DNA of 64,000 bases, taken from positions 1 through 64,000 of the forward strand of contig NZ_MSJQ01000455.1 in NCBI RefSeq assembly GCF_014596515.1, read 5' to 3'. Shown here piece after piece: positions 45,597 to 62,874 of this stretch. The translations under genes were made by a program, and so were the position numbers. The first letter of the stretch is position 1; each line of letters opens with the position of its first letter. The DNA is from Streptomyces sp. CBMA156 (GTDB taxonomy: Bacteria; Actinomycetota; Actinomycetes; Streptomycetales; Streptomycetaceae). The notes below the pieces were generated by a model. It was not told the DNA's origin. It worked only from the letters and a program-made list of their open reading frames with translations, and made no database searches.

Positions 45597-45615
45597 ACGA
45601 CCTGCGAAAACGCTG

Positions 45616-46440: not shown

Positions 46441-46611
46441 AGGATAGTCGGACTCCGGCGGTGTGCCTCCTGCGGAAGCGGCTCGCCGCGCAGGGGGGTA
46501 TTGGAGTCGCTGCTCGTTCTGCCACCGGATTTGCCGGACACGCCGGCGACTCGGTTGAGCCTCCCAACCGTCTCGCCGACGTGTCCACCTTCAGCTCCTG
46601 CTGAAGCACCC

Positions 46612-46833
46612 CTACTCGAGATCGTCGAACAGCTCAACCTCGTAGACTCGCTGGGCCGTCGGACGGACCGGCCTCAGCCAGCCCGGGTACGCCGTGGCCG
46701 CGCCCTGCTGCGGCGCTGGCACCGGGTTCGGGCGGGGCCGGCGCTTCCGACGGGGCGGGATCGTCGCCTTGGGCGAGCGAGTGGTCGCCGGGCGCGTGCT
46801 GCGCTGCCGGCTCTTGCGCTGGTTCGAAGTCAT
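46612..46833 (-). CDS. Small very basic protein, hypothetical
   Basis: This 73-residue frame is rich in Arg, Lys, Pro and Thr (MTSNQRKSRQRSTRPATTRS), with a Pro/Arg middle and an acidic end VYEVELFDDLE. AAGAG lies before the ATG. It could be a small DNA-binding or disordered protein of the island. I recognise no family, and translation is uncertain. Confidence 0.4.
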   Translation of the reverse strand: MTSNQRKSRQRSTRPATTRSPKATIPPRRKRRPRPNPVPAPQQGAATAYPGWLRPVRPTAQRVYEVELFDDLE

Positions 46834-47102
46834 GGTCGTCTCTTGGGTGTTCGTTGGATACCGACGAGTCCGAGCCGCTTCACCGGAGTGATTCCGGTAG
46901 CCGCCTCGGAGGCCCGCGACTTGATGGTGCGCCAGGCGACCATCATCGAGCTCGGGCCGATGACGCAGCAGCGTGCCAGATATCCCCGCAGCCCAACAAC
47001 TCCGAGGCGTTAACCGAACGTTACAGGCCTCCCGACGGCTCGTGCGATGCTGTCCAAGACGCATCTACCAGGCCAATTCGCGCTTCAACATTGGTGATTG
47101 AC

Positions 47103-49814
47103 ATGAAGTTTCGCCTGCTTGGACAGTTGGTCGCACTCGACGACGGAGAATCGATCGATGTTCCGTCAGGCAAGACCTGCGAGCTCCTAGCTCTTCTGCT
47201 ACTGACCCCGGGCGAGCCGGTTCCCCATCGCAAAATTTTTCGATTCCTATGGCCGGGTGAGGACACGAAGCCCTCGAACATCCGGCAGTACTGCCTCAGG
47301 TTGCGCCGCGCCGTGGGGCTGGAGGTAGGAAACAGCGGAGGCGCCTCCCACATCCGGGTAAACCCCGCCAGCGTCGACCTGGTCCGTTTCCGGAGCCAGT
47401 ACGCCAGCGCGCTCCGCACCGGGAATCCACAGAATCGGCGCGCCACACTGCTGACTTCGCTAGCCGAATGGCGCGGATCCACCCCGCTGGAAGACCTGCC
47501 AGGTGAAGCCTTCGCCCGGCAGCGGGCTCGAATCCTCCGCGAGCTACACGACGCGTTCGCGGACTGCGTGCGCACCGACTTGGAGTGTTCCGAACCTCAC
47601 ATCGCGCTCCAGCGGGCGGACGATGCGCTGGTCCACTGGCCCGACAGCGAGACCCTGCTCGGCCTCAAGGTCCAGTCGCTAAGCACGCTGGGCCGCCACC
47701 ACGAGATCGACCCGCTGCTCGCTCAATGGAAGCGCCGGTTCAACCAGCCGACCGCCCATCTGCTGCTGGCAAGGACGAGCAAGAAGAACATCACCTCCGG
47801 CATCACGTCCCCGGATCTGGGGTTCCCTGAGCGGCCGAACCAGCTGCCGTCCCTGCAGGGACGACTGATCGGCCGTCGGTCAGAGCTGGGACTCCTCGCC
47901 GACGTCGTGCTGGGCAGGGAGCCCGGATCGGGGCCGATCGCCGTCGTGGCGGGCCTGGCGGGCGTCGGGAAGACATGCCTCGCGGTGGCCGCAGCCCAGC
48001 AGCTTGCGCCGAACTTCCCGGACGGGGTCCTGTACATCGACCTCAGGGGATTCTCCGTCCTGGAACCCGAGGAAGTCGCTTCTGTCCTCGTCCGGTTCCT
48101 GAACGACTTGCGGACGACCCCGGCCACCGTGAACCTCGACGGGCTGGTTTCGGCCTACCGTTCGGCGCTGTTGGACCGCCGCGTGCTGGTCGTCCTGGAC
48201 AACGCCCGGAACGAAGCGCAGGTCCGACCGCTGCTGCCCGGTCCAGGCCGAAGCGCCGCAATCGTCACCAGTCGCCGGCAGCTGGAGGGAATGGTCGTCA
48301 AGGAAGGTGCGAAGCTGATCAATCTCACGCCGCTCGACCGCCCCGAGGCCGCCGAGTTGCTGGAAGCAGCTCTGGGAGAGGAACGGATGGGCCTTGCCAG
48401 ACCGTTCGCCGGTTCCTTGCTCGACTACTGCTCCGGATTACCGATCGCTCTGCGCATCGTGTCCGCCCAGATCACCCGCCGCCAGCCCCGGGACCTACCG
48501 AGCGTCGTCCGCAGACTGCTGGAGGAGAGTTCTGGGCTGCGCCCTCTCGACCTGCGTACCGATGAGTTGAACGTCGGCTCCCTGCTGGAGAACTCCTACC
48601 GTCTCTTGTCTGCTCCTGCCGCCAAGCTGCTGTGGCAACTCTCCGTGCATCCCGGCCCGACGATCAGCTGGCGGGCAGTCCAGGCACTGGGGCACGGCCG
48701 TGTCGCGGTCGACGGATCGCTGAATGACCTGATCCACATGAGCCTGGTGACTGAACCGACCTTCGAGCGCTATGCGATGCACGACCTGGTGCGCATCTAC
48801 GCTGCACAGCTGGCCGATCAGCAAGATCCTGGAGATCGCGACGAAAGCCTCGCGACGGTAATGGAGTTCCTCCTGCAGAACGCCTGGTCCTGTGATCGGG
48901 TACTCGACCCGGATCGCCAGCTGCCGATCACCACGAGCGGGGATTTCGCTGTGGTCTCGCCCACAGACCACGCGGCCGCGACGGCCTGGTTCGACGCCGA
49001 GTACGCCACCCTGGGCGCTGTGCTCCAGCTGGCTGGGAGACTCCAGCTCGACCGGTACACCTGGCTTCTGGCGCTCACTGTGCTGACCTATCAGTGGCGG
49101 TCCAACCGATACCTGGACGCCCTCGGCCACCTCACCGACGCCCTCCCGGCGGCCAGACGGATCGCAGGCCCGGGAGACGTGGCCATGATCCGGCGTCTGC
49201 TCGCCGGGACCCACCGCGGACTCGGCGATCGTAGGAGGGCCATGGCGGAACTGCGCGGGGCGGTCCGCACCAGCCAGGACCACGGCGACCTGAAGGGCAC
49301 TGCGCTGGGCCGTTACAGCCTGGGCATCATGCTGCACGAGGACGGCGCCATAGACCAGGCGGTGGTGGAACTCAGGGCCGCCCTGACCGGCTTCGAGGCT
49401 CAGGAGGACCGGCTCGGCCAGGGAGCCGCACTCGACGGCCTCGCCAACGTCCACCACCGGGCCGGCGACCACTTCTCAGCCCTCGAGCACTGCCGCCGGT
49501 CGTCGGCCCTGCTGAACGATACGGCCGATCTCAACGGCCAGGCACACAGCTCGTTCACAATGGGCCGTATCCGGGCTGCGATCGGCGAGCACGACGCGGC
49601 GGCGGCGGCCTACCGCCACGCGCTGATGCTTTACCGCTCGATGGGGTACCCGAGCCGGGAGGCCAGGACGCTGGTCCGGCTCGCCGACTCGCTCAGCGCA
49701 CTGGGTCGTGACCAGGACGCCCGGCAAGCCGTCGAGGAGGCCCGTGCTCTGCTTGCAAGGCTCGGCGAGGAAGACCTCGATGCCGCGGTGGAGCGTCAGC
49801 GGCAACTCTCGTGA
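47103..49814 (+). CDS. SARP/AfsR-type regulator with NB-ARC ATPase and TPRs
   Basis: The protein has 903 residues: an N-terminal winged helix (MKFRLLGQLVALDDGESIDV, RQYCLRLRRAVGLEV), a BTAD domain to ~240, a STAND/NB-ARC ATPase with P-loop VVAGLAGVGKTCLAVAAAQQ (~278) and Walker B RRVLVVLDNARNEAQVRPLL (~355), a winged helix with MHDLVRIYAAQL (~559), and C-terminal TPR-like repeats (~700-890). AfsR-type proteins activate transcription after sensing via the ATPase and TPR modules. Here it sits in a defence island, so a surveillance or regulatory role for the PIWI-RE operon is possible but unproven. The ATG is placed at the start of the winged helix. Confidence 0.9.
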   Translation: MKFRLLGQLVALDDGESIDVPSGKTCELLALLLLTPGEPVPHRKIFRFLWPGEDTKPSNIRQYCLRLRRAVGLEVGNSGGASHIRVNPASVDLVRFRSQYASALRTGNPQNRRATLLTSLAEWRGSTPLEDLPGEAFARQRARILRELHDAFADCVRTDLECSEPHIALQRADDALVHWPDSETLLGLKVQSLSTLGRHHEIDPLLAQWKRRFNQPTAHLLLARTSKKNITSGITSPDLGFPERPNQLPSLQGRLIGRRSELGLLADVVLGREPGSGPIAVVAGLAGVGKTCLAVAAAQQLAPNFPDGVLYIDLRGFSVLEPEEVASVLVRFLNDLRTTPATVNLDGLVSAYRSALLDRRVLVVLDNARNEAQVRPLLPGPGRSAAIVTSRRQLEGMVVKEGAKLINLTPLDRPEAAELLEAALGEERMGLARPFAGSLLDYCSGLPIALRIVSAQITRRQPRDLPSVVRRLLEESSGLRPLDLRTDELNVGSLLENSYRLLSAPAAKLLWQLSVHPGPTISWRAVQALGHGRVAVDGSLNDLIHMSLVTEPTFERYAMHDLVRIYAAQLADQQDPGDRDESLATVMEFLLQNAWSCDRVLDPDRQLPITTSGDFAVVSPTDHAAATAWFDAEYATLGAVLQLAGRLQLDRYTWLLALTVLTYQWRSNRYLDALGHLTDALPAARRIAGPGDVAMIRRLLAGTHRGLGDRRRAMAELRGAVRTSQDHGDLKGTALGRYSLGIMLHEDGAIDQAVVELRAALTGFEAQEDRLGQGAALDGLANVHHRAGDHFSALEHCRRSSALLNDTADLNGQAHSSFTMGRIRAAIGEHDAAAAAYRHALMLYRSMGYPSREARTLVRLADSLSALGRDQDARQAVEEARALLARLGEEDLDAAVERQRQLS

Positions 49815-49829
49815 CCCTCGGCGGCTGGC

Positions 49830-50720
49830 TCACCGGTTCGGCTCGGCCAGCCGGAAGTAGGTCGAAGGGTCGGGGCGCGCGGCCTTCGGACTCCGGTCGG
49901 AGCCGACCCTCGGCAGCCAGCACTCGAGGTAGCCGCGGACCTCTCGAACCTCGGGACGCTCGCGCGGGTCAACGGCGACCATGGCAAGGCCGAGGCTCTT
50001 CAGCTTTCCGGGCATATGGGCATCGAATCCGTTCAGGAAGGCTGGCTCCGTCTCGCCGGGCGGGCCGTCGACATGACTGTAGGGCAGTTCCGAGGTCATC
50101 ATTTCGAAGAGTAGGACGCCGAGGGCGAAGACGTCGGATTTCGCGGTTGACTCGGAATCCTGCACATACTGCTCGGGAGCGGCGTAGCCCGGTGTCCCGC
50201 GGGGATCGTAGTTCGGGGTCGAGAAATCTGTGGAGATGCCCACGTCAAGGAGTCGAATCCGCCCGTCGGGTTGGATCATCACGTTGTTCGGTGTTACGTC
50301 CCGGTGGACGTAGCGCTCGTGCACCAGCGCCAGGGTGTCGCAAAGCTGGGCCACCACACAGACCGCGTCGGTGGCGGACACCGGCTGGTGCCTGCCCATC
50401 CAGGACCGGAGGGTGGAACCGTCGATCAGTTCCATTACGATGTATCGCTGCTTTCCCCAACCATCATGCCAGCCGTCGTCCAGCACGCGGGGAATCCCGG
50501 GCACCGATTCCATGAACCGCAGTCGACCCAGTTCTTCCTCGAGAGGCTTGGCCTCCCCGGAGTAGTCGGTCACTGGTTGGCCGAAGCGTCGAAACTGTGC
50601 CTTGACAGCAACATCTCGGCGGCCATATTCATCACGGGCGACGAAGAGCTCGCCTTCGCCGCCTTGGCCGAGTTCCCGCAGGATCCGAAAGCGATGATTC
50701 AGGAGGGCACCAGGACGCAA
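49830..50720 (-). CDS. Serine/threonine protein kinase, soluble
   Basis: This 296-residue Hanks-type kinase has a Gly-rich loop LRELGQGGEGELFVARDE, VAVK with the ATP Lys, Glu in the following helix, HRDVTPNNVMI with the catalytic Asp, the metal Asp in LLDVGIS (DVG instead of DFG), and GTPGYAAPEQ. There is no transmembrane helix or extracellular sensor, unlike most actinomycete PknB-type kinases. It starts at TTG with GGAG 8 bases upstream and is divergent from the PIWI-RE operon across 71 bases. It may control or complement that system. Confidence 0.88.
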   Translation of the reverse strand: MRPGALLNHRFRILRELGQGGEGELFVARDEYGRRDVAVKAQFRRFGQPVTDYSGEAKPLEEELGRLRFMESVPGIPRVLDDGWHDGWGKQRYIVMELIDGSTLRSWMGRHQPVSATDAVCVVAQLCDTLALVHERYVHRDVTPNNVMIQPDGRIRLLDVGISTDFSTPNYDPRGTPGYAAPEQYVQDSESTAKSDVFALGVLLFEMMTSELPYSHVDGPPGETEPAFLNGFDAHMPGKLKSLGLAMVAVDPRERPEVREVRGYLECWLPRVGSDRSPKAARPDPSTYFRLAEPNR

Positions 50721-50791
50721 GACGTGAACTCCAGGACCAGATCCGCCCGGTACCGGGCTCGGATGGCAATAGACAAGAAGTGGGGGACAGT

Positions 50792-52342
50792 ATGACAGGA
50801 ACCTGGCCGCCCGAAGGCTTGGTCGGACGTTCTTCCGTGATCGACATCCGACTGGGGATGTTCGGGCCGGAACGCTATCGGTGCCCGGCTTCGGATGCGC
50901 TCAAGGCCCGCGGAATGCGACCGGCCCGGTCAGCCGCGTGGAAGCCCGAAGCATTGGAAACGTTCACCAACGGCCCGTTCATGGCCGCGCTCGACCAGAT
51001 CGAACTGCCGGACGACGACGCAGACTCGAACAGGTCCAACAAACCCGCTCACGACGGGGTGCACCTGTGGACCCGACATGCCCTCCGGATGTACGAGACG
51101 GCGTTCGCCGACAGCTCGGAACTCCAGCCGGCCCCACGCCCCTGGGGCTACCGACACCGCGGCTCGCGGGGTGACGGGTCGGTGAGCACGGAGTACCGGA
51201 TCAGTGTCTGGGGGCGTTGCTTCGAGTCGGTGGACGGCCGACTGCGAGAACTCCGGCTCCCGGTGAACCGCCTACGCTGGCGCACGGATGCCGAGCGGGC
51301 GATCGCAGCCTTGGTCGCGGCGGAAGGCGAGCCTGACGAGCGATTGGAGCGCGTCCGAGTGATGCAGTTCGCGCTCTCGGACGGGCGGACCGAGAAGCTG
51401 TTCGACGGCACCCGGGCAGAAGCGCTGGCCCTCTATCGGCAGGACGGAGCGCCCGCGGTCCGGTCGCTCCTGGACCGTCCGGAGTATCGGCCCGGATCTG
51501 CCTGCGTGTCCTGCCGGGTGGCACCCGTCTGCCCTGCGCTGCCGCGAGCCCCGGGATTGCTCGGGATAGCCGATCGCACCCGGCCACGCCGGAGCTGGTC
51601 CCCGACCACGGGCCGCGGGCACAGCTCTTGCCCGGCGCGCGGCTACCTCCGCGGCTTGCGCCTCCCGGTGGACGACTCCGTCGAACGCAGTGCCGCGGCC
51701 GAGCGCGGACGCGCCGTCCATGCTTTCCTCTCCGCCCGGCACAGCCAGGAGCAACGGACGCCGTGCACCTCCGATGTACCCGCCGACTGGGTCCCCGACG
51801 GTTACCGGCTCCCACAGTCCGAGCGTCTCCTCGGTGCCCGCCTCCTGCGTCATCACGCCGAGGTGTGCCCGCTCCGCATCGCCGATCCGCAGTCCGAGAG
51901 GACGCCGGAACCCCTCCTGGTGTTCGACGACCCCGCAGCCGATCTGCTGGTGCTGACGGAGCCCGACCTGCTGTACCGCGAACGCGGCTCGTGGGTATGG
52001 CGTGAGACCAAGACCTCCGCTGGCAGGAGGATGCCGCGCGACCTGCTCTCGGCCTACCCTCAGCTGGCGCTGGCGGTGAGGATCATCGCCAAGGGCATGC
52101 TGGCCGCCGACCGGGTTGAGCTCGAACTGCTACGCCCCGGCGGCGTGGACCTCCGGAGCCTCGACCCGTTCGCGCCGGAGACCGTAGCCGCAGCCGAAGC
52201 GGTGCTGCGCGATCAGGTCACCAGCTGGCACCAGGAGCGACTGTTCGAAGCAACGCCGAGCGCGGAGTGCGACAGCTGCGAGATGGCGCGCTGGTGCTCG
52301 GCACGCCGACTGTCAGAGCCTTCACAGGAGGCGCCGAAGTGA
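50792..52342 (+). CDS. PD-(D/E)XK nuclease of RecB/Cas4 type, PIWI-RE operon
   Basis: The 516-residue protein ends with a RecB-like nuclease: AERGRAVHAFLSARH (~308), LVLTEPDLLYRERGSWVWRE then TKTSAGRR (Asp and Glu-x-Lys, ~387-405), YPQLALAV (QxxxY-like motif), and a terminal CDSCEMARWC cluster (~491). An additional CVSCRVAPVC group lies near 238. Together these suggest a Cas4/AddB-like Fe-S exonuclease. The N-terminal half has no recognised fold. ATG 50792 follows GGGGGA; the stop overlaps the next gene by GTGA. It is the first gene of a four-gene PIWI-RE operon. Confidence 0.8.
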   Translation: MTGTWPPEGLVGRSSVIDIRLGMFGPERYRCPASDALKARGMRPARSAAWKPEALETFTNGPFMAALDQIELPDDDADSNRSNKPAHDGVHLWTRHALRMYETAFADSSELQPAPRPWGYRHRGSRGDGSVSTEYRISVWGRCFESVDGRLRELRLPVNRLRWRTDAERAIAALVAAEGEPDERLERVRVMQFALSDGRTEKLFDGTRAEALALYRQDGAPAVRSLLDRPEYRPGSACVSCRVAPVCPALPRAPGLLGIADRTRPRRSWSPTTGRGHSSCPARGYLRGLRLPVDDSVERSAAAERGRAVHAFLSARHSQEQRTPCTSDVPADWVPDGYRLPQSERLLGARLLRHHAEVCPLRIADPQSERTPEPLLVFDDPAADLLVLTEPDLLYRERGSWVWRETKTSAGRRMPRDLLSAYPQLALAVRIIAKGMLAADRVELELLRPGGVDLRSLDPFAPETVAAAEAVLRDQVTSWHQERLFEATPSAECDSCEMARWCSARRLSEPSQEAPK

Positions 52343-53385
52343 GCCCGGACTTCGAACTACTGGCGGCGGTGGCTCGCGGCGTGCTGGACCTGAGCGACGT
52401 TCCCCGTCCGGCGGCGCTCCGGCTCCCGTACCCGACGAGCACTCAACTAGCCTTCGATCGTGTCGTGTGGACATGCCTCAAGCAGGACCGGCCGGCACCC
52501 CTGAGCGTTCCCGATCTGCTGTCCCGCTGCCGGGACCTCCTCACGACCTGGCCGCTGGCACTCCCGCCAGGCGTCCTTACCGATGACGCCCGGCTGATCG
52601 ACCGAGGCTCGGCCGAGCCGACCCGAACCTGTGCCGAACTCGCCTCATACGGCCGCCTCGGCAGACTCGAACAAGGCGCCGACAGAGTAATCGCCGATCT
52701 CGCCGACGCCTGCGGGGCCCCCGAGCGGTTCGCCTCCTGTCGGGACTTCCTGATCGCGCACCCCGTCATCCTGAACCCTGACAGCTCCAAGCTCATGCGT
52801 CCGGCCACCATCCGCACCTGGCGACTGGTTCGGGAGCTGTACGAGCCGGTGCCCGAGAACTTCTCGACCGACCACACGGTCTCCACCTGCACAGAGTGCC
52901 TACTTTTTGCCAAGCCGACAGAGGGCGCCGGGGCGTGGTGCGAGGGAGAGTGCAAGAAGCCGCCCGGAGGGCTCGAGAAGGCGGAGGTGCCCAAGCACCC
53001 GATCGCCCTCCCCCGCGCTGTCCGGCTCTTCCTCACCCTCCCCGCCCGCACCGAACTGGCCTTGCGCGAGAAGCTGGCTGGTTGGTCCGGGCTTGTTCCG
53101 ACGGGGACGGGCAGCCTCCGACTCGTCCACGAGAACGGGACGGGCAGGGCCGTCCGGGTGCTCGACCGTGAGCAGCCGGCGCTGGCCGCGTTCAGGGCCT
53201 CCGAGTTGGCCACCCTCGAAGACTCCCCGCTCGATGTCGTGATGCCCGACGCAGTCGTCGACCGACCGGGCTACCGGAAGGCCTTCGACCACAACCTTCC
53301 CGATGGCGCCCTGGTGCGGCTCAGATCCGTCAGCGAATTCACAGCTCCGTATCAGAACGACCGACCCGGGAGAACTCGTGCGTAG
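52339..53385 (+). CDS. PIWI-RE-associated REase-like protein with Cys4 motif
   Basis: This 348-residue protein starts at GTG with an excellent AGGAGG 7 bases before it. A zinc-like motif CTECLLFAK and CEGECKK lies at ~183-205. The C-terminal part (FRASELATLEDSPLDVVMPD, ~295) resembles the degenerate restriction-endonuclease fold proteins predicted beside PIWI-RE genes. Whether it keeps a full active site is not clear: an Asp is visible but the usual E-x-K is not. It overlaps the neighbours on both sides (GTGA, and 8 bases), indicating balanced expression with the helicase. Confidence 0.65.
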   Translation: MSPDFELLAAVARGVLDLSDVPRPAALRLPYPTSTQLAFDRVVWTCLKQDRPAPLSVPDLLSRCRDLLTTWPLALPPGVLTDDARLIDRGSAEPTRTCAELASYGRLGRLEQGADRVIADLADACGAPERFASCRDFLIAHPVILNPDSSKLMRPATIRTWRLVRELYEPVPENFSTDHTVSTCTECLLFAKPTEGAGAWCEGECKKPPGGLEKAEVPKHPIALPRAVRLFLTLPARTELALREKLAGWSGLVPTGTGSLRLVHENGTGRAVRVLDREQPALAAFRASELATLEDSPLDVVMPDAVVDRPGYRKAFDHNLPDGALVRLRSVSEFTAPYQNDRPGRTRA

Positions 53386-56300
53386 CACTGCCAAGGCCCT
53401 GCACCAGGTGGTGCGGGAGCTCCGCTCCAGCAGCTCTGCACTGCCGCGCCGCAAGCTGGTCGACCTGTGTGAGATCGAACTCGGCCTGTTCCTCCAGGAA
53501 CAGCTCACTCCCGGTGCTCCTGCCGCGGAGGGCTGGACCCTGTTCAGCGGCTATCCGTTCGCTCGTGAGCGCGACGACATCTCTGACCGGCAGGAGCACA
53601 TCCGTCGCACCGCGCGCTACGCCCTGTGGACCTGGGGGCGCCGACTGGCCTGGTCCGAGGCGCTGAAGGACTACCAGCAGCAGGACCGCCAACTCAGAGC
53701 CTTCGACGTACCGGACCTGAACGCCCCCGCCGTCCGCCGTCCGTCGCTCTCCGTGGCGGAGGACCGGTGGGCCTCCTACGAGCGCCTGCTGAACCAGGCG
53801 CCGCCGTTCACCGGAGAGCCGGCCACCTTCGCCGCCCCCGGCCGGTACGCCTTCCCCATCGGCCGGCACCTGACCACCGTGCTGATCCCGGAACATTCAG
53901 CCCCCACTCCGCCCGGTCACGACCTCGGACGGCTTCCGGTCCATGCGGGCAGGCCGCTGACCTTCACGTGGAAGAAGCTGATGATCACGGCTGCGACCAT
54001 GGACGCCCGGAAACCGGCCGGCTGGCTCACCCGCTTGAAGGCGATCCGGCTGTCCACACGCCGCCGCGGAGGCTTCCGTCCCGCCCGCGACTTCTCCGTG
54101 TCCGGCATCGAGCACCTGCTCGGGATCGTCGGAGCCGGCAAGAGCACGCTTCGGGACGTCTTGGCCGTGCACCTCGCCGGGCAGGGACGGAACCTGACGG
54201 TGGTGGTCGGCGACGTCGCGGAGCAGCTCAAACTGGTCGAGCTCTACAACACCCACGTTCCCGCCTCCGCCGCACCCGTCCTCGGCGCGACGGGCCGTCA
54301 GCAGCACGCCGAACGGCTCCACCGAAGGACCGCAGGACGCGGCGAACCCAACCTGCTCGCCCACCTGGACCCCGGCTTCCAGTACCTGAGCACCTCCTGT
54401 GCTTTGAACGCGCTGCGCCACGCCGACGGCCACCCCGCCGACGACCTCCTGGGATTCGGCGAAGCACCGTGTACCAGGCTCCAACCGCCCAAGAAACGCG
54501 AGGTGGACCCCGACGACCCGTGGACCCCCTACCGGACTGCCTGTCCGTTCTGGTCCCAGTGCCCGCGCCATCACGGGCCACGGTCCCTGGTCGACGCGAG
54601 GATCTGGGTATCCACCCCGCCCAGCCTAGTGGATACCCGTGTCCCGCACCCACAGAACCCGGAGCGCATCCGCTACCTCGAACTCGCCTGCCGACGCAGC
54701 GACCTGGTGATCGTCGACGAGGCGGACCGGGTGCAGATGCAACTCGACCGCATGTTCGCCCCCGCCATCCCACTGCTCGGCGGTGGCCCCGATACCCGCT
54801 CGTTCCTCGACGAGGTCAACCAGCACCGCATCCGGGAGCTGGCCAGCGCCGGACGGGTGCAACTATCCGATCGCGACGTGGAGAACTGGTCGGCGGCGGT
54901 GAACACCACCCAGGCTGCCGCAGACCGGCTGGTGGCGATGCTGGTCCGCGACTTCGACCTGCGCAAATGGGTCCGAACCGGCTACTTCAGCGCCGGAACC
55001 CTCCAACTGCGCCTGCTGGAGGAACGCTTCCCCCTGCCGGAGGACTACGACGGCCAGGCTGGGCCCCCAGCCGAGGACCCGCACCGGGAACCGCGGAAGC
55101 ACCTGATGGAACTCCTGGACGCCTTCCGGGACAACCCGTTCGGGGACCGGCGACCGCCCAAGGACGACACCCTGCCACTGCTCGGGTTGCTCGGAGAACT
55201 GCTCCACACCAACTACCGCGAGCACACCCGTGCCCGGCTGCGGGAGGTGGTGTGCGACCTCTTCGAGATCACCCCACTCCTGGGGGAGGAGGAGGCGAAC
55301 CAGGACCGGTACCGCGAGCTCAGGTCACTGGTGAACGGGAACCGGGACACGTCGGCAGGGCAGCAGGAGAGTGCTGGCAAGAACACGAAGCGACGGCGAC
55401 GCGCTCCCCTTCCCGAGGACTCGGACGACTGGCTGGATGCCCTGCTCGACCGGTTCGAATTCACCCTGCTGCTCAGCGCTCTGGAGCCCAAGCTCGCCCT
55501 GATCAACACCATGTGGCCGCGGGTCGCGGACGCACTCAGCCTCGGCTTCAACGAGATGTACCGTCGCCCCCTCGACTACGCGCCGATGGTCCCCGAGTCC
55601 CCGATGGGCAATGTGATCGGGTTCCAGTTTCTCCTGGAGGGGCGCGACGAGGGCGGTGTCCGCAGCGGCGAGCTCCGTTTCTTCCGCTGCAGCGGGGTGG
55701 GGCGTGAACTGCTGCGCGCCATGCCGGACCTACCTATGGTGGACGGCTTGCCGGGGACCAACGTCCTGCTGATGTCTGGCAGCAGCTGGGCCGACAAGTC
55801 CAGCCGCTACCACGTTCCGGTACCGATCGGCACACTGATCGAACCCGACCCTGCGGAACTGGAACGGATCGCCGACCAGAGCGAGTTCCGCTTCGAGTTC
55901 GTTCGAGAGGCCTGTGCCTGCCCGACGCGGTGCACATGCGACAGTCCGAGCGAGGCCCTGCGGCTTTCCGGAGCGCCGATCGACCGGCGCGAAGACGTGC
56001 TGCGCCGGATGGCCACCGAGCTCGGCCGCAACGACCGAGGCCAGGGGCGCCTCCTTCGGGAACTGCATAGACTACCGGAACCCCGTCGGCACATCCTGCT
56101 CCTGGTCGGCAGTTACGACGAGGCCGCATTGGTGGCGGACACGCTGCACACACTCAACGAGCGTTGGCGCGGCAAAGTCCGGCGGCTGGTGTCCGACGAC
56201 GACCCGGATGCCGCCGGCCGTCCACTGGACGACGAGCACCACGCCCCAGTACTGCGCCGCGGTGACGTCGAGACGCTCGCCGCCACGGACGCCGAGATCT

Positions 56301-56935
56301 TGGTGGCGCCGCTGCTCGCGGTGGAGCGCGGGCACAACATCCTCGCCGTTGACAGCAAGGAGGCCGCCATCGGCTCAGTCTACTTCCTGGCCCGGCCCAA
56401 CCCCCGCCCTGACGACCTCGGCCTCGCGGTGCACGCGATCAACGACTGGATCGTCCGGCTGATGGACGGCACCGGGTTCTCCGATCTGGTGCGCGGCGCG
56501 CCCACCCTCGGTCTGGGTGCGCGTAGATTCCGCGACGCCGCCCGGTCCAAGTGGTTCCACGTCCTCGCCAGGAGCATGGCCTGGAGTCACCTCGACGAAG
56601 AGGACCGCGTCCAGGTCACCTGGGACATGCTGGTTCTGATCTGGCAGGTCATCGGCCGCTCCGTCCGGGGCGCGGTACCCACTCGGGTCGCCTTCGTCGA
56701 TGCCGCGTTCGCGCCCTGCCTGGCAGCGGCCGACTCAACCGGGCCCACCGACACGCCGAAAACGAGCCTGCTGTACAGCATCCGCGCCGTGCTCACCCCC
56801 TACTTCGGCCCGGACAGCACCGAGCCGGAGGCCGAACGCCGCATCGTCCAGGCCCTCTACCGGCCGCTGTGGACCGCTCTCAACCGCTGCCTGACCGAAA
56901 CCACTGAAGGGCGAGGTTCCGCATGTACCCACTGA
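53378..56935 (+). CDS. DinG-type Fe-S helicase of PIWI-RE system
   Basis: This 1185-residue superfamily II helicase has motif I LLGIVGAGKSTLRDVLAVHL (~246), four cysteines spaced as in XPD/DinG Fe-S domains (STSCALNAL ~339, EAPCTRL ~364, ACPFWSQCPRHHG ~387-393), the DEAD-type motif VIVDEADRVQMQLDRM (~446) and motif VI WQVIGRSVRGAVP (~1090). A second unusual cysteine group REACACPTRCTCDS lies near 847. The protein is much longer than DinG, as known for PIWI-RE partners. It would unwind DNA or R-loops for the PIWI protein. It overlaps the PIWI gene by 13 bases. Confidence 0.88.
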   Translation: MRSTAKALHQVVRELRSSSSALPRRKLVDLCEIELGLFLQEQLTPGAPAAEGWTLFSGYPFARERDDISDRQEHIRRTARYALWTWGRRLAWSEALKDYQQQDRQLRAFDVPDLNAPAVRRPSLSVAEDRWASYERLLNQAPPFTGEPATFAAPGRYAFPIGRHLTTVLIPEHSAPTPPGHDLGRLPVHAGRPLTFTWKKLMITAATMDARKPAGWLTRLKAIRLSTRRRGGFRPARDFSVSGIEHLLGIVGAGKSTLRDVLAVHLAGQGRNLTVVVGDVAEQLKLVELYNTHVPASAAPVLGATGRQQHAERLHRRTAGRGEPNLLAHLDPGFQYLSTSCALNALRHADGHPADDLLGFGEAPCTRLQPPKKREVDPDDPWTPYRTACPFWSQCPRHHGPRSLVDARIWVSTPPSLVDTRVPHPQNPERIRYLELACRRSDLVIVDEADRVQMQLDRMFAPAIPLLGGGPDTRSFLDEVNQHRIRELASAGRVQLSDRDVENWSAAVNTTQAAADRLVAMLVRDFDLRKWVRTGYFSAGTLQLRLLEERFPLPEDYDGQAGPPAEDPHREPRKHLMELLDAFRDNPFGDRRPPKDDTLPLLGLLGELLHTNYREHTRARLREVVCDLFEITPLLGEEEANQDRYRELRSLVNGNRDTSAGQQESAGKNTKRRRRAPLPEDSDDWLDALLDRFEFTLLLSALEPKLALINTMWPRVADALSLGFNEMYRRPLDYAPMVPESPMGNVIGFQFLLEGRDEGGVRSGELRFFRCSGVGRELLRAMPDLPMVDGLPGTNVLLMSGSSWADKSSRYHVPVPIGTLIEPDPAELERIADQSEFRFEFVREACACPTRCTCDSPSEALRLSGAPIDRREDVLRRMATELGRNDRGQGRLLRELHRLPEPRRHILLLVGSYDEAALVADTLHTLNERWRGKVRRLVSDDDPDAAGRPLDDEHHAPVLRRGDVETLAATDAEILVAPLLAVERGHNILAVDSKEAAIGSVYFLARPNPRPDDLGLAVHAINDWIVRLMDGTGFSDLVRGAPTLGLGARRFRDAARSKWFHVLARSMAWSHLDEEDRVQVTWDMLVLIWQVIGRSVRGAVPTRVAFVDAAFAPCLAAADSTGPTDTPKTSLLYSIRAVLTPYFGPDSTEPEAERRIVQALYRPLWTALNRCLTETTEGRGSACTH

Positions 56936-59685
56936 TCCACCAAACCGCCTACGAGCCCGACCCCGATCACGGGCCGTGGTTCGAGCAGTTCCGCGTGATG
57001 TATTTCCCCGAGGAGTGGCGCACCGAGTTCCTGGACCTCTACCACCGCCGACGGCACCGCCGGAGCGAGCCCCCGGGCCTGCCGATCCGCAGGCTCAACG
57101 CCCTACTGAGGGCCACCGCACCCGGTGTACTGGCAACCGGCCGGGGGGCAGGGTCCAGCTCCGAGGTGCCGTGGTTCTACGCCACCGATGACCAGCCAGC
57201 CGAGTTGGTGGCCCCGCTTCTGGCCTCCTGGGTGATGACCCTGTCTCCTGGTACGGACAAGGATCCGGTACGGGCCGCCGGGCACGAGGCCGCGCTCGAC
57301 CGCGCCCTCGCACTGATCGACGAGGTGACCCCGGGCTGGCGCGACGAGAGCGTCGACCTCACGGCCACGGAAGTCTCCGCAGGCGGCACCGCCGAGCCCG
57401 ACCGACGGCTCTACCACCTGCTGCCGGAGCGGATCGGCGCGTTGCTCGCGGCCCGACCGCTGCTGATGGACGGTGCCGAACTGCGTTTCCGCCAGGTCAC
57501 CCGGGACCAAGGGGTGGAGCTGGTCAGCTGGCCGCCGCGCACCTATACCAAGTACAAGCGCACCTGGTACTACTCGGCGCTGGTGACGGTCACCGTACAG
57601 ACCGCACCCTTCACGGATCGTTTCCGGGTGCACGTCTCGTACGGCGTGCGGCGCTGGGTCACCGACTCTCCGGTGAAGCTGCAGAACGGCAGTGGGGCAA
57701 CCGTCCTTCTCGACGCACCGATGCCCTGGGCCGAGACTTCCGACCGGCGCCACCGGCTCGCCGTCAACTCAATCTCCCTGGACCGGACCCTCCGCGTGCC
57801 CGTGTGGAGCAGGCAGAGCCTGGTCGACCTCCTGCCGGAACTGGACATCCAGCACGTGTACCCGAAGCCCGCCGAGCTGACCGGCGAAGCAGCCGAGTGG
57901 CTGGCAGGCCGGGACGGGGTGGCTGCCGGCATCCTCTACGACACCGGCTTCGGCAAGCACGGTGTGGGCGCCGGCCTGATGCCGCTGGAACGAATGCTCC
58001 TCGACCGGTGGATCGAGGAGGGCATCCGCCCGTTCCTGCGCCGGGTACCGGCCCTCGAACGGGTGCACCGCCGATCGAACCCCAGACTGCTCGCCACCTC
58101 ACACACCAAGGACCCAGGGAAACTGGCCGAACGCGCACGGCTACGCGTCGAGGCCAGGCGCGCCGCCATCCGCACGGTACTCGACGGCCAGCCGCTGTCC
58201 GTGGACGTGGTCTGGCAGACCGAGGAGACCCGGGACGGACTCGTCACGGCACTGCGCCAATGGCTCGACCTCCCGCCTGCTGTCCCCGATGCGGACGGCA
58301 CGTACGAGTGGCACGCCGACGAGCTGTGTGTGGTGCTCCGTGCCCGTCCGATGGAGTCTCTCGGCAGCGCCATCCGAGTGGTCCGGGAGACTGGCCTCTC
58401 GCGCGCCCAGTCGGTGGCGTCGGCCGTTCGGGAGCGCGCGGCACGAATGACCGCCAGGCTTGGCGCGCACCGGAAGACGGCCGGAATCGCATTCGTGGAG
58501 ATCCTCGGACGCGACCGTTTCCCGGCAACCGATACCGATCCCAAGTCGGCACTGCGTCTCGGGTGCGCTGGAGCCGGGCGGGTGAGTCAGTTCATCGTCG
58601 TGCCGGAGGACGCTGACGGCCCACTGTCCGAACGGGCCGGCTCTGCGGTCGCGGACGGGATGCGCCAACTCGGCGCAATGGTCCCTCCCGAACAAAAGCT
58701 CGACAAGGCCCTGACCGACGACATGCAGTACCTGGCGCTCTGGCACGTTCGCCATCAGGCCAGCGGCTCCACCCGGCAGGCCAGCCGTCACCTCGTCGCA
58801 CTACGCATCCGCCCGCGCGACCCGGTGCACCCCGTCCAAGGCTGGGACGAGGCCAAGAAGCGCTGGGTCCCGTACGCCCGGCTGCTGCTCACCATTGCTG
58901 CCTCCGGCGCCACTCCGACCCACCGAGAGGAAACGGATCGGACCGGCACAATGGCGGCGGAAACCCGCTACGAGGCCGAACGGCAGATCAGGTCACTGCT
59001 CTACCAGGTCCGGGACCGCCCTACCCTGTTGCTCGCCAACAGTGGCAACCTGCGCAAGGTCTGGCCTGGCCTGAGCAATGGCCAACTGGTCAAGGACAGC
59101 CTGGTCTTCGACGGAGAGCGCCCCGCCCGGCTCTCACTGTTCGGCACCGACCTGCGCGTGGTCCTGCTCCGGGACGCTAACAGCCGCGAGGAGACCGCCG
59201 AGTGGTACGCCCCAGGGGCCCAGGAGGACGACACCCCGGGGGTGTCCATCGGACTGTGGGCGCCGCAGGACGCCGATCCGGACAACCGGGTCTTCACCAG
59301 CACGGTCGGGAAGCCGCCGACCGCCGGAACGGTCCGTACTGACCTGCGCAAGATCGTCCCGACCACGCGCTGGCCACACGGCCCCGCAGCCACTGCCTGG
59401 AACCCGCAGGCACTTGAGCTCACCGTGCTCGGCTGCCTCTCCGAACAGGCTCTGGAGCAGACCCGTCGGACCGACTGGCCCGCGGACCGGACCGCGCTTT
59501 TGGCCGCCGCCGTGCATCAGTTGCGTCTCCACGACGAGTACCATCCGCTCTCCCGGCCGCTGCCGCTCCATCTCGCCAAGCTGGCCGAGCAGTACGTCCT
59601 GCCTCTCGCCGCAGAGGCGATGCCGACGGCCGAGGCGGCAACCAGCGACGACGTCGAAGCCGGTAGTCCGTCAGTGGAGCAATAA
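56923..59685 (+). CDS. PIWI-RE protein (prokaryotic PIWI of the R-E class)
   Basis: The product has 920 residues. It shows the traits of the predicted PIWI-RE family: an N-terminal LIHQTAYEPDPDHGPWFEQF and LPIRRLNALLRATAPGVL, a MID-like region, and the PIWI core with IAFVEILGRDRFPATDTDPK (~520) and ALRLGCAGAGRVSQFIVVPE (~541), which hold the R and E residues that name the family. The C-terminal TAWNPQALELTVLGCLSEQ and RPLPLHLAKLAEQYVLPLAA are typical. These proteins are predicted to bind guide nucleic acid and target foreign DNA or R-loops together with the DinG helicase and nucleases. GAGG lies 7 bases before the ATG. No PAZ domain is seen. Confidence 0.85.
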   Translation: MYPLIHQTAYEPDPDHGPWFEQFRVMYFPEEWRTEFLDLYHRRRHRRSEPPGLPIRRLNALLRATAPGVLATGRGAGSSSEVPWFYATDDQPAELVAPLLASWVMTLSPGTDKDPVRAAGHEAALDRALALIDEVTPGWRDESVDLTATEVSAGGTAEPDRRLYHLLPERIGALLAARPLLMDGAELRFRQVTRDQGVELVSWPPRTYTKYKRTWYYSALVTVTVQTAPFTDRFRVHVSYGVRRWVTDSPVKLQNGSGATVLLDAPMPWAETSDRRHRLAVNSISLDRTLRVPVWSRQSLVDLLPELDIQHVYPKPAELTGEAAEWLAGRDGVAAGILYDTGFGKHGVGAGLMPLERMLLDRWIEEGIRPFLRRVPALERVHRRSNPRLLATSHTKDPGKLAERARLRVEARRAAIRTVLDGQPLSVDVVWQTEETRDGLVTALRQWLDLPPAVPDADGTYEWHADELCVVLRARPMESLGSAIRVVRETGLSRAQSVASAVRERAARMTARLGAHRKTAGIAFVEILGRDRFPATDTDPKSALRLGCAGAGRVSQFIVVPEDADGPLSERAGSAVADGMRQLGAMVPPEQKLDKALTDDMQYLALWHVRHQASGSTRQASRHLVALRIRPRDPVHPVQGWDEAKKRWVPYARLLLTIAASGATPTHREETDRTGTMAAETRYEAERQIRSLLYQVRDRPTLLLANSGNLRKVWPGLSNGQLVKDSLVFDGERPARLSLFGTDLRVVLLRDANSREETAEWYAPGAQEDDTPGVSIGLWAPQDADPDNRVFTSTVGKPPTAGTVRTDLRKIVPTTRWPHGPAATAWNPQALELTVLGCLSEQALEQTRRTDWPADRTALLAAAVHQLRLHDEYHPLSRPLPLHLAKLAEQYVLPLAAEAMPTAEAATSDDVEAGSPSVEQ

Positions 59686-59706
59686 CACCAACCGGTCCGT
59701 CACCGT

Positions 59707-59749
59707 CCCTGCTTCTGGCCAACCGCCCTGCGGGCAGCCGGAAGCAGGG
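59707..59749. terminator. Terminator of PIWI-RE operon
   Basis: Arms CCCTGCTTC and GAAGCAGGG enclose a loop with its own GCCCTGCGGGC hairpin. It starts 22 bases after the PIWI-RE stop. Confidence 0.6.
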
Positions 59750-59826
59750 GACCGCGCTTGCCTTGATGCGCGGATGAATGCGGCATAGGTCCCCTCCTGT
59801 TCCGCCTGGCACCCACTGGGTGAACT

Positions 59827-60960
59827 TCAGGCATAAGGATCGCGAAGCGGCCGCGGTTCCCGTACACCTCGAACGATGGCTTCGGGAAGGTCCGAGCCAG
59901 CGGTGTAGTAGCGCCCCTGGGCTTCACCCCTGGCTGTAAGCCAGCCTGTGCGGACGAGTTCGCGAATGTCGCGTTGGGCCTGCTGCTCGCTGAGCTCGGC
60001 GTCGGCCTGGTAGGTCGCGCGGCGCAGGCGGTTGCCCATGGCCGCGGGGTAGAGGGCGTAGAGCATGCGGTCGGGCCAGCCGCGCTGCTCGACGGCTTCA
60101 TCGAGGGCGGTCCAGACCTCGCGGGTGGTGTTCACCTGGCGCTCGACGCTCTGGGCCTGCTGGTGGTGGGCGCGCAGGCAGAACCGGATCCAGGGCAGGG
60201 TGTCGCGGTCGGGGGTCCAAACGGGGCCGCCGACGTCGGCGAGGATGTCGTAGTAGCGGTAGGTGTTGCGGGCCCGGCCGAGCCATTCCTCGATGCTGGA
60301 GAACTCCGGCGCCATGATCCCCTCACGGGCCAGGACCAGGGTGTGCAGGGCGCGGGACATCCGCCCGTTGCCGTCCGACCACGGATGGATCGCCACCAGG
60401 TTCAGGTGCGCCATAGAGGCCCGCACCAGTCCCGGCGCGTTCAGGTCGCCCTCGTTCAGCCACTCGACCAGCTCGTCAGTCAGTACTGCCAGCTGCTGGG
60501 CATCAGGGGCGGTGTACGCGGCGATGGTCGGGTCTTCGGCGGAGGTGACGTACACCGGCCCGGTACGCCACCAGCCGGGCCGTTTGATCAGGTGGTGGCC
60601 CTGCATCATGAAGTGCAGCGCGTTGAGCAGGCCCTTGCTGTAGGCGAAGTCGTCGCCCGCTTCGGCGAGGCGTTGGATGTAGGTCATCGCCTGCCGATAA
60701 CCCTCGATCTCGGCCGTGACGGTGTCGTTCGCCTCGATCGGCGCTTCGCCGACCATGATGTCCTCAACGTCCGACACGCTCGCGGCGTAGCCCTCGATCG
60801 TGTTCGATCCGGCGATCGCCCGCGCCGTGAGGTTACGCCGCAGCTGCCCTTCCCAGCGACGTGAAGTGCGCAGATGGAGACGCAGCCGGTCGCGCATCTC
60901 GTCGATCTCCGCGAGGACGGACTGGTCGATGTCCTGCAGCGATGGCACACCATAGAGCAT
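59827..60960 (-). CDS. Fic/DOC-family AMP transferase
   Basis: This 377-residue Fic protein has the catalytic loop AIHPWSDGNGRMSRALHTL (~190), matching HPFx[D/E]GNGRxxR, and an N-terminal inhibitory helix with SNTIEG (~50), the (S/T)xxxE(G/N) autoinhibition motif of class II Fic enzymes. A C-terminal winged helix (AQRDIRELVRTGWLTARGEA) follows. It would AMPylate or otherwise modify a target protein when the inhibition is relieved. It is divergent from the integrase, with 14 bases between starts. A broken paralogue lies at 42265. Confidence 0.92.
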   Translation of the reverse strand: MLYGVPSLQDIDQSVLAEIDEMRDRLRLHLRTSRRWEGQLRRNLTARAIAGSNTIEGYAASVSDVEDIMVGEAPIEANDTVTAEIEGYRQAMTYIQRLAEAGDDFAYSKGLLNALHFMMQGHHLIKRPGWWRTGPVYVTSAEDPTIAAYTAPDAQQLAVLTDELVEWLNEGDLNAPGLVRASMAHLNLVAIHPWSDGNGRMSRALHTLVLAREGIMAPEFSSIEEWLGRARNTYRYYDILADVGGPVWTPDRDTLPWIRFCLRAHHQQAQSVERQVNTTREVWTALDEAVEQRGWPDRMLYALYPAAMGNRLRRATYQADAELSEQQAQRDIRELVRTGWLTARGEAQGRYYTAGSDLPEAIVRGVREPRPLRDPYA

Positions 60961-60974
60961 GAAGCAATGACACC

Positions 60975-62273
60975 ATGACGGCATCAAACAAGCAAGGTGA
61001 ATCGGCGCAACCATGGTGCATGAGTACTTCAACGCACCCCTGGAAATCAGCCACCCCGGACCCGTTCAGCGAGATCACCACCGCCGCCCCTCCCGCTCCG
61101 CCGAGTGCCCTGCGCTCGCAATACCGCACTTCACCACTCACCAACCTCCGCCCGCCGGCCAGCCAGGCCACCCCGGCGCAGACGCAGGCATGGGCCAGCT
61201 TCCTGGCAGGGGCCGTCCACAATGGACTCGACCCGACACTGGTCACCCAATGGCTGACCATCCTGGCCGACGCCACCGGCAGCCCCGTCCTCCCGTCTTT
61301 GGCCTCCATGCCGTTGGGCGACTATGTCAACCTCCGCCTCCCGGTCATCCTGACCGGCCTGGAAAGCACCACACACGCCCCCTACCTCGCCGGCTGTCAC
61401 CTGCGGATCGAGCCCGAGCTCGGGCAGCTCCCCCTCCGCCTGATCACCACCGCTCTCATCACTGCGGCGGTTCTCGGCTGGATCGCCGATGGCTGCGGCC
61501 GCTCCACGATCAAGAACACCCTCGCCATGCTCTCCCGCATCTTCGAGCAGGCCATCGTGGACGGCATCCTCGAACGCAACACCGCCCACATCACCGGCTG
61601 GCAGCGCGAATACCAGCAGGTCGAAGACGAACTGCGGGACCCCCGCTCCCTTGCCCTGCGCAACTGGGACGCCCTCACCGAACTCGCCGATGCCCTGGTC
61701 GCGGCCTCATACAACCGCTATCGCGGATGGGGTGATGTCGTCGTCCACAGCGCCTGCACTGCCACACGGATCGGCGAGGTCTCCGGAGTCCGGGCCCGCG
61801 ACGTCGATACCGACAAGTGGCTCCTGACCTGCCGCCGACAGACCACCCCCGCTCCCGGCGGCCTGGTCGACAAGCACACCAAGGGTAGGGTCGCCCGCCT
61901 CATCCCGATCATCGAACCATTGCGCCCACTCATCATCAGGCGGCTCCAAGCGACGCGAGGCGACCCGGACGCCCGCCTCTACACCGGCCCGCGCGGCGGT
62001 CGCATCAGCACCGCTGTCCTGCGCGACGCCACCCACTGGGACGACGTCACCCGGAACCTCGGCTATGAACACCTGCGCCACACCGGCCTGACCTGGATGG
62101 CCGACGCCGGCATCCTTCCGCACATCCTCAAGGAGATCGCAGGCCACCGGCTCATCACCACCACCCAGCGCTACTTCCACCCCGACGCGCTCCGGATCCT
62201 GGAAGCCGGCCAAGCCCTCACTCATCACCTCGAGAAGCTCCAACGCGACGGCCAGATCACCCGCCGCTGGTAA
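60975..62273 (+). CDS. Tyrosine recombinase, integrase of the tRNA-Pro island
   Basis: This 432-residue site-specific recombinase has the catalytic Arg in CTATRIGEVSGVRARDVD (~261), Lys in KHTKGRVARLIP, HxxR in YEHLRHTGLTWMADAG (~364), His in IAGHRLITTTQRYFHPD and the nucleophilic Tyr in the same stretch (~399). The gene points toward the tRNA-Pro gene ~400 bases away, the standard position for the enzyme that inserted the island there. The start is set at ATG 60975; an N-terminal ~60 residues rich in Pro/Ala/Ser has no recognised function. Confidence 0.9.
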   Translation: MTASNKQGESAQPWCMSTSTHPWKSATPDPFSEITTAAPPAPPSALRSQYRTSPLTNLRPPASQATPAQTQAWASFLAGAVHNGLDPTLVTQWLTILADATGSPVLPSLASMPLGDYVNLRLPVILTGLESTTHAPYLAGCHLRIEPELGQLPLRLITTALITAAVLGWIADGCGRSTIKNTLAMLSRIFEQAIVDGILERNTAHITGWQREYQQVEDELRDPRSLALRNWDALTELADALVAASYNRYRGWGDVVVHSACTATRIGEVSGVRARDVDTDKWLLTCRRQTTPAPGGLVDKHTKGRVARLIPIIEPLRPLIIRRLQATRGDPDARLYTGPRGGRISTAVLRDATHWDDVTRNLGYEHLRHTGLTWMADAGILPHILKEIAGHRLITTTQRYFHPDALRILEAGQALTHHLEKLQRDGQITRRW

Positions 62274-62420
62274 CACGCCGTAACTGCCATCGCCTCGAAA
62301 ATGGCCGCTGACAAGCCGCTTCGATGCTGCCCGAGTCACACCACGGCAAGCAGTAGGCGCCAGAAAGGCCTTAGAAATGCCCCGATATGAACCAGTTTTA
62401 CCCACTTGACCCGCGACCGA

Positions 62421-62445
62421 CGCACTTGACCGAAGGTCAAGTGCG
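62421..62445. terminator. Hairpin after integrase
   Basis: A perfect 11-bp stem CGCACTTGACC with a GAA loop, ~150 bases after the integrase stop. The sequence echoes the tRNA-Pro anticodon arm (CACTTGAC). Confidence 0.5.
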
Positions 62446-62559
62446 CCGCCACGCCTCGCTCCAGCAAAACGACAGGAGATCTCTCACTTCACCTTGAGAT
62501 CGAAGAACAATCCACACACCAGCCACCCGAGCAACGGGTGGCGACGGACCTGCGGCCAA

Positions 62560-62580
62560 ACCTGGGGACCATTTTGGGAC
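62560..62580. repeat. Putative integrase arm site, right copy
   Basis: It matches 45868-45888 in inverted orientation at 20 of 21 positions and contains GGGGACCATTTTGGGAC. It lies 86 bases from the att repeat. Confidence 0.55.
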
Positions 62581-62666
62581 CGCCCGGGATCAAGAAACGG
62601 GCCCCAAAAACCAGTAAGAGCGGGCCCTTGGTTTCCCAAGTACCCGCTCCCACAACCGACTTCACA

Positions 62667-62741
<75 letters not shown>

Positions 62742-62874
62742 TGGTCTCGGCACCTGAAGCGAGAGCCTGAGGGGCTCTGCTGTGGGCTTCTCGACCTTGT
62801 CTCCGGTGTCCCGGCGACGTGGAAAACAATACAGCACGTCGGGGGGTGCTCGCTGCCAGGTTCGGGGTGGTGGG

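Follow-up and report, generated by a model that had tools for sequence, protein, structure and literature searches.

The window analyzed here is a 64,000-nucleotide stretch of Streptomyces sp. CBMA156 (contig NZ_MSJQ01000455.1, positions 1 to 64,000), and it carries an operon for a PIWI-RE protein, a member of a branch of Argonaute-like proteins that ranks among the least understood and on which experimental work is scarce. Our analysis shows that, in the PIWI clade of the window, the conserved unit consists of six genes: the four-gene core, a divergent Ser/Thr protein kinase, and an AfsR-like protein. We favor, at roughly even odds, a mobile cassette in which an inert PIWI protein directs a helicase and a nuclease under a kinase/AfsR-like switch. 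This copy predicts which gene cuts and which do not, as well as a role for two flanking genes, and cloning the four-gene set alone could miss the control of the system. The unit is laid out as follows, with E values of profile matches in parentheses.

47103 to 49814, + strand: AfsR-like protein with SARP-type helix-turn-helix (HTH)/BTAD, NB-ARC (STAND) with Walker A, and TPR (NB-ARC 4.8e-9, BTAD 2.6e-6, TPR_12 3.7e-13)
49830 to 50720, - strand: Ser/Thr protein kinase, divergent from the operon (Pkinase 7.7e-31)
50721 to 50791, unstranded: divergent intergenic region of 71 bp, a presumed shared promoter
50792 to 52342, + strand: PprPDDEXK, Cas4/AdnA-like nuclease (PDDEXK_1 5.5e-17; PprPDDEXK 1.9e-127)
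52339 to 53385, + strand: PprRE, with Y domain, zinc-ribbon Cys, and a restriction endonuclease (REase)-like domain whose triad is lost (S-R-L) (pPIWI_RE_Y 2e-34; PprRE 2.2e-78)
53378 to 56935, + strand: PprDinG, with Z domain and a DinG/XPD-type helicase with Walker A, DEAD box, and four Cys (pPIWI_RE_Z 2e-41; PprDinG 5.9e-248)
56923 to 59685, + strand: PprPIWI (PIWI-RE), with X, MID, and RNase H-fold PIWI domains and R745/E832 (Pfam matches below, Argonaute fold; PprPIWI 2.8e-233)

The core operon and its two flanking genes

All four PADLOC Ppr protein models are matched, and the operon is a complete PIWI-RE gene set of a known kind, as the first-pass annotation had proposed. Its genes are as tightly packed as described there, with overlaps of 4 bases (GTGA), 8 bases (GTGCGTAG), and 13 bases between consecutive genes. 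The four-gene unit is real as a core operon but was drawn too small: the divergent kinase, which had been noted, and a convergent AfsR-like gene flank the core in 26 of the 28 loci of the window's PIWI clade, and the other two are cut short.

These counts come from 95 unique PIWI-RE loci, i.e., 20 regions, 78 loci, 3 plasmid records, and the window, minus 7 duplicates (L087, L089, L112, L125, L127, L139, and L143). The 78 distinct loci derive from the best 80 of 187 relatives in a scan seeded with alignment A1, which biases the set toward relatives of the A1 sequences, and Streptomycetaceae are the source of most typed loci. Among the 20 matching genomes of the relatives search, G112 and a second place of G118 were left out of typing, as were 10 of the 13 matching genomes of the class search. 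A PprPDDEXK gene is visible in 89 loci. The kinase is divergent and the AfsR-like gene convergent in 26 of them; the kinase comes with a convergent methyltransferase in 32 and alone in 6; the rest have a kinase with a co-directed methyltransferase (1), a methyltransferase and then a kinase (8), a methyltransferase only (3), or none of these (13). The kinase is present in 73/89 and missing in 16/89. Locus L073 was placed by hand in class A, the window's class, for the trees and the class counts (its automatic label was kinase only, the AfsR side being beyond the flank). In classes A, B, and C, the kinase adjoins PprPDDEXK or lies one gene off, and its partner is an AfsR-like protein or a methyltransferase. 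No kinase, AfsR, or methyltransferase matches were found in the six loci without a visible PprPDDEXK gene, which is uninformative for L088 and L140, both truncated at the end of a contig. A FastTree phylogeny of PIWI with 95 rows accommodates the seven architecture labels with 9 changes, where the minimum is 6 and shuffles average 49.9. The window's clade has 28 rows, 27 of class A and the cut L088, and most kinases of its sister clades have an HTH-N6-methyltransferase as partner. Because of long branches joining close to the root, it is unsure in which order the deepest splits occurred and which neighbor came first.

The presence, order, and co-inheritance of the flanking genes can be read directly from these loci. 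Among 199 genomes, the window's kinase has its best foreign matches in G093, G034, G131, and G022 (579, 281, 193, and 140 bits), which also hold the best four of the AfsR-like protein (1701, 816, 420, and 340 bits). These genomes are the four other class-A genomes typed in that search, and the kinase matches all lie beside clade-A PIWI-RE. Within class A, distances correlate with those of PIWI at 0.958 for the kinase (27 loci) and 0.959 for AfsR (26), and at 0.978, 0.966, and 0.983 for PprPDDEXK, PprRE, and PprDinG (27 loci each). The divergence of both flanking genes follows that of PIWI almost as closely as that of the core genes does. The class A kinases form one group in the kinase tree (SH-aLRT 99), with an inner order resembling that of PIWI; there is weak support (54) for separating all PIWI-locus kinases from 22 own-genome kinase rows, which include two identical pairs, and seven rows labeled as other kinases are identical copies from dropped duplicates. 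As a control, tblastn recovered PprPDDEXK, PprRE, PprDinG, PIWI, and the kinase in 26/26 other class-A loci, and the Fic and integrase genes of the element described below in 1/26. Its count for AfsR is also 26, with a weakest match of 61 bits that may be another protein, and the AfsR linkage count rests on neighborhood profile typing instead. Given the neighborhood counts, the best-match genomes, the distance tracking, and the Fic/integrase control, we reject the kinase as a chance neighbor.

In the kinase, K40, H139-x-D141, N146, and D159 are kept in 73/73 PIWI-adjacent kinases. The AfsR-like protein, with a probable start at ATG 47103, has a Trans_reg_C score under the cut-off (19.7 bits) and reaches 283.2 bits against the NCBIfam AfsR equivalog, whose cut-off is 1430. 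The pairing of a Ser/Thr kinase and a SARP-NB-ARC-TPR protein in one locus recalls AfsK-AfsR of Streptomyces. According to the passages available of PMC10936776, AfsK phosphorylates AfsR, a STAND SARP activator; ATP binding relieves inhibition and phosphorylation counteracts it. The same passages place AfsK and AfsR two genes apart, whereas the window's genes are adjacent, convergent, and tied to PIWI-RE.

The two flanking genes could also belong to the inherited block and regulate something else, or form a separate abortive-infection or stress module. Each is its own transcription unit, the kinase faces away from the operon, and its general type occurs among defense genes (PADLOC models PD-T4-6 and mad6). 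Elsewhere in this genome, a methyltransferase homolog lies near a kinase on a contig with no PIWI-RE match. Yet the kinase keeps its place beside PprPDDEXK, or one gene off, in classes A, B, and C despite a differing partner, and we consider such a separate role unlikely. We retain the reading in which the kinase and the AfsR-like protein would control the PIWI-RE core.

Active sites of the core proteins

The PIWI protein matches pPIWI_RE_X (3.6e-112), RNaseH_pPIWI_RE (4.1e-65), and MID_pPIWI_RE (3.8e-26), all over the Pfam cut-offs. Its AlphaFold model (21-row alignment A1, pLDDT 78.6, pTM 0.83) folds as an Argonaute: Foldseek matches it to KmAgo (4e-10) and VIA to TtAgo (Z 15.2; 516 residues, 5.2 A), and Argonaute/Piwi proteins head both lists. 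Hence the membership in PIWI-RE proposed by the first-pass annotation held under two of the checks it had named, profile search and structure prediction. Its placement of the PIWI core did not: the stretch DPKSALRLG...GRVSQF covers residues 539 to 557, inside the MID domain (Pfam 462 to 590). R745 is kept in 93/95 and E832 in 95/95 PIWI-RE proteins, both in predicted strands, and they are our best candidates for the R and E that the family conserves in its sheet extension, other R/E positions being equally invariant. Strand 1 of the RNase H fold spans residues 602 to 609 in the model; columns 604 to 609 have no acidic residue in 95/95 proteins, and the window reads Q-Y at 602 and 603.

The third gene had been called a DinG helicase of the Fe-S type, which agrees with what we found. 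In PprDinG, D447/E448/D450 of the DEAD box and C341/C365/C389/C395 are kept in 95/95, K255 in 94/94, and the other Walker A positions in 91 to 94 of 94.

The first gene has an intact nuclease motif. In PprPDDEXK, D392, H317, and C280 are present in 89/89 proteins, and E405 and K407 (E405-x-K407), Q424, C493, C496, and C502 in 88/88. The N-terminal half has a second Cys set (C31/C238/C241/C247) in 89/89. The model (31-row alignment A2, pLDDT 90.3, pTM 0.88) rests on rows spanning residues 240 to 510, so that the N-terminal half is barely covered; its nearest folds by VIA are AdnA (Z 12.6; 228 residues at 4.4 A) and ACE1, a Cas4 family protein associated with Argonaute (PDB 9iab, 9iac; Z 12.0; 223 residues at 3.9 A). 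ACE1 resembles the C-terminal half of PprPDDEXK, which differs from it by tandem Cys sets and the extra N-terminal half and has no sequence match in PDB (profiles of PIWI and PprPDDEXK were searched, neither with a match). In residues 1 to 260, the secondary-structure elements follow the same order as in the nuclease half and its Cys pattern recurs, which suggests that the N-terminal half is a degenerate second domain.

The second gene had been described as REase-like; the catalytic residues of an REase are missing from it (S-R-L). The window's pPIWI_RE_REase score is 19.3 bits, under the Pfam cut-off of 26.1. The D-D-K triad is found in 0/27 loci of class A, 36/37 of B, 13/13 of D, 3/3 of M, 1/1 of C2, and 1/8 of C, and in 4/5 of the loci without PprPDDEXK (the cut contig of the sixth lacks an RE gene). 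The single miss among the latter reads VRY and is, by elimination, L088 of the window's clade. Triad loss is therefore common to the window's clade and largely to class C. It does not simply track a missing methyltransferase, because class D lacks one and keeps the triad, whereas class C has one and mostly lacks the triad. The REase of class A is thus predicted to be catalytically dead, and the Cas4/AdnA-like Fe-S nuclease is the only one among three proteins with a nuclease fold that keeps its active-site motif. With strand 1 of PIWI also non-acidic, cutting would fall to the first gene. In the single pair of the window and G093, dN/dS is 0.216 for PprPDDEXK, 0.259 for PprRE, 0.200 for PprDinG, 0.203 for PIWI, 0.210 for the kinase, and 0.238 for AfsR (Fic, 0.070; integrase, 0.542). 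Within PprRE it is 0.196 in the N-terminal part and 0.380 in the C-terminal part. In this pair, all six cassette genes are constrained, the REase-like domain less so.

These observations bear on the model of 2013, in which PIWI-RE recognizes DNA-RNA hybrids, with DinG as the unwinding enzyme and the REase as the one that cleaves the invader; on this model, both flanking genes would be incidental. The pPIWI-RE island of that study has three genes "without an associated methylase gene" (Burroughs, Iyer, and Aravind 2013, PMC3702460). The window shares its order REase-DinG-PIWI, its overlapping genes, and the Pfam X, MID, RNaseH, Y, and Z domains, which speaks for the model together with the intact triads of classes B, D, and M. 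The window differs in the lost REase active site, with PprPDDEXK the sole nuclease-fold protein with a motif, and in the conserved kinase and AfsR-like flank, which the passages available of PMC3702460 do not mention (those on kinases concern Mediator). The absence of the triad throughout class A, window included, and the conservation of the flanking genes in the clade count against the model, as does a REase score that is under the cut-off in the window and L026, although over it in L027. We hold it to be improbable for this locus and keep the inert PIWI protein with a single cutting partner as the preferred reading.

A possible mechanism and its relation to known systems

From the parts at hand we infer that a guide is used, what is targeted, how the steps follow one another, and which way phosphorylation acts. 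The catalytically inert PIWI-RE protein would hold a short guide and mark invading DNA, e.g., plasmid or phage R-loops or single strands. PprDinG could then unwind at the marked site, PprRE could serve as a non-cutting DNA-binding or bridging subunit, and PprPDDEXK could degrade the invading DNA. The STAND/TPR AfsR-like protein may sense a signal and drive transcription from the divergent region, with the kinase tuning this control. Such a division of labor would be analogous to that of DdmDE, an inert Argonaute plus a helicase-nuclease. DdmE is inert, and DdmD is a fused helicase-nuclease in one protein. DdmE (9bgk_E) is among the Foldseek matches of the PIWI model, as are many other Argonautes. 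The window resembles DdmDE in having an Argonaute-type protein with a helicase and nuclease, and it differs in that these are encoded by separate genes, in its DinG/XPD-type helicase with Fe-S cysteines, in its RE-type PIWI, and in the kinase/AfsR module. A guided Argonaute and a DNA-unwinding nuclease are the proposed working parts of DdmDE in PMC12904381; the use of the letters D and E there differs between text and table, and we follow the table.

A role in replication or DNA-damage tolerance instead of defense is a further alternative. AdnA, AddA, and RecB are repair enzymes, and they are the closest nuclease folds of PprPDDEXK besides ACE1. Such a role was proposed for the PIWI-RE protein of P. 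stutzeri, where deletion of piwi-re leads to lower ciprofloxacin survival and filaments (Huang 2022, PMC10991935). A patchy, mobile distribution (20 of 199 genomes, own included) and the same element at the same tRNA-Pro in another genus argue against it, and we think it doubtful here. The cassette with an inert PIWI protein and a kinase/AfsR-like switch seems the better account.

Several points weigh against this account. The published PsPIWI-RE is catalytically active, being an RNA-guided DNA and DNA-guided RNA nuclease that needs D525 and D610 and not R639 or E718, and its deletion phenotype concerns ciprofloxacin survival, not a tested defense. Our strand-1 site, columns 604 to 609, was taken from the strand of the model and not from a residue-level alignment with D525 of that protein. 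At the lower end, the gap between PIWI-linked and other matches is small, the next foreign match scoring 130 bits for the kinase (after 140) and 327 for the AfsR-like protein (after 340), and shared species history contributes to the distance correlations of 0.958 and 0.959. In PMC10936776, AfsR gained little activity from phosphorylation by AfsK, and the proposed switch may therefore work other than by activation. Finally, contig C389 of the same genome (L238:7101-10709) carries a homolog of the sister-clade methyltransferase (38% over residues 330 to 665). This homolog is truncated where the contig ends, a kinase gene lies at a distance of about 0.9 kb, and PIWI-RE has no match on C389. A methyltransferase-kinase neighborhood is therefore not exclusive to PIWI-RE loci, and the enzyme might act in trans.

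More tentatively, actinobacterial PIWI-RE systems as a whole may be phosphorylation-gated machines descending from an ancestral unit with a dedicated Ser/Thr kinase. One branch would combine the kinase with an HTH-DNA methyltransferase and an active REase in a methylation-linked system. In the window's branch, a STAND-type AfsR-like sensor would replace the methyltransferase, the REase would be dead, and an inert Argonaute would direct a Cas4-like nuclease. Class B and C loci share the core operon and the nearby kinase with the window and have a methyltransferase in the place of AfsR (e.g., L036:2662-4668; Pfam N6_Mtase, with PADLOC mad2 and in part mad1 matches). Its motif IV reads NPPF in 24/32 of class B, and NPPS, TPPY, YPPT, and NPPA also occur. 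Their kinases are longer, with median matched lengths of 500 in B and 427 in C, compared with 303 in A, and some of the longer ones have weak TPR matches. A DNA methyltransferase in the locus is defining for MADS and BREX-like methylation-linked defense. The window differs from these systems, with no methyltransferase profile match between 44001 and 64000 and none among the genes scanned with Pfam. No link to a kinase or methyltransferase was found in the available listings, abstracts, and passages of the literature on PIWI-RE, MADS, and Argonaute-associated Cas4; the passages of PMC7641849 concern "Piwi-related" proteins.

The divergent region between kinase and PprPDDEXK in class B (e.g., L034, L096) contains a 15-base motif, TKGACTNAGTTCACA, that reaches 13 to 14 of 14 in 31/37 loci (shuffles, at most 12), with weaker forms in classes C and M. 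It was rejected as an explanation for the window, being absent from class A, where the best score is 10 of 14. Ten of the 13 class D loci have another upstream set, a protein of about 372 to 392 amino acids before one of about 490, mostly with a 291-amino-acid protein in front; in L032:1642-6601, for example, a helicase-like AAA protein follows, and the proteins of 291, 372, and 505 amino acids have no Pfam match at E 0.05. Three other arrangements were seen: in L073:1204-9965 an insert of about 1.2 kb seems to interrupt PprPDDEXK, and another of about that size DinG; in L099 and L126 (13.1 to 17.6 kb) the methyltransferase and two additional kinase genes are downstream of PIWI-RE; and in L100:13216-15981, a class C locus, an AfsR-like gene lies behind PIWI-RE.

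The element at tRNA-Pro and its distribution

The cassette lies on an element of 17,051 bp between two 47-nt att copies, the mobile island that the first-pass annotation had recognized, and its own integrase adjoins tRNA-Pro. Its remaining features are as follows.

45616 to 45662, unstranded: attL-like copy (47 nt) of the 3' end of tRNA-Pro, which marks the left end of the element (direct repeat D1, 96% identical to 62667 to 62713)
59827 to 61032, - strand: Fic-domain protein, cargo outside the conserved cassette (Fic 4.3e-12)
60975 to 62273, + strand: tyrosine integrase of the element (Phage_integrase 2.6e-10)
62667 to 62741, - strand: tRNA-Pro(ggg), integration site, whose 3' end is the right att copy (ARAGORN; Rfam tRNA at 62668 to 62741; repeat D1)

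The junction without the element is seen in 11/29 loci of relatives (L200 to L228), in which the left flank runs past the 47-nt core into the tRNA and the right end of the element is missing. The continuation past the core is only 25 to about 125 bases long in several of these 11 loci; L203, L206, and L208 show the longest collinear flanks. No relaxase was found among the genes scanned with Pfam, the small open reading frames at 45.7 to 46.8 kb being outside that scan, and the RNA families in 45500 to 63000 comprise none apart from the tRNA.

PIWI-RE was found in 20/199 genomes (relatives search) and 13/394 (class search), with the window's own genome counted in both. A single-protein scan of genome contigs gave no relative, whereas an alignment scan did, and no relative was found in the viral contigs and phages searched. 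Seven plasmid records have PIWI-RE relatives at 23 to 29% identity. In three of them (two Nostoc, one Streptomyces), profiles detect RE, DinG, and PIWI genes and no kinase, AfsR, N6-methyltransferase, or PDDEXK genes; farther upstream, plasmid L146 is annotated with a DNA adenine methylase as well as an enzyme of the HaeIII family.

The element of G093, from another genus, matches the window at 89.9% over 13.2 kb in the cassette and at 94.4% over 2.3 kb at the Fic/integrase end, and is bounded by tRNA-Pro on one side and, about 26 kb from it, an att copy on the other. G044, which is absent from the PIWI-RE matches of the 199 genomes, has an integrase end that is 94% identical at the same tRNA, with other genes behind it. 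The tRNA-Pro site is therefore a hot spot with exchangeable cargo. The same tRNA-Pro gene is also found on contig C3 of G018 (47 to 94 kb), with a PIWI-RE gene of class B at a distance of about 3 kb, and this locus perhaps occupies the same hot spot; two more partial copies of the tRNA region are found on that contig, at 81 and 94 kb.
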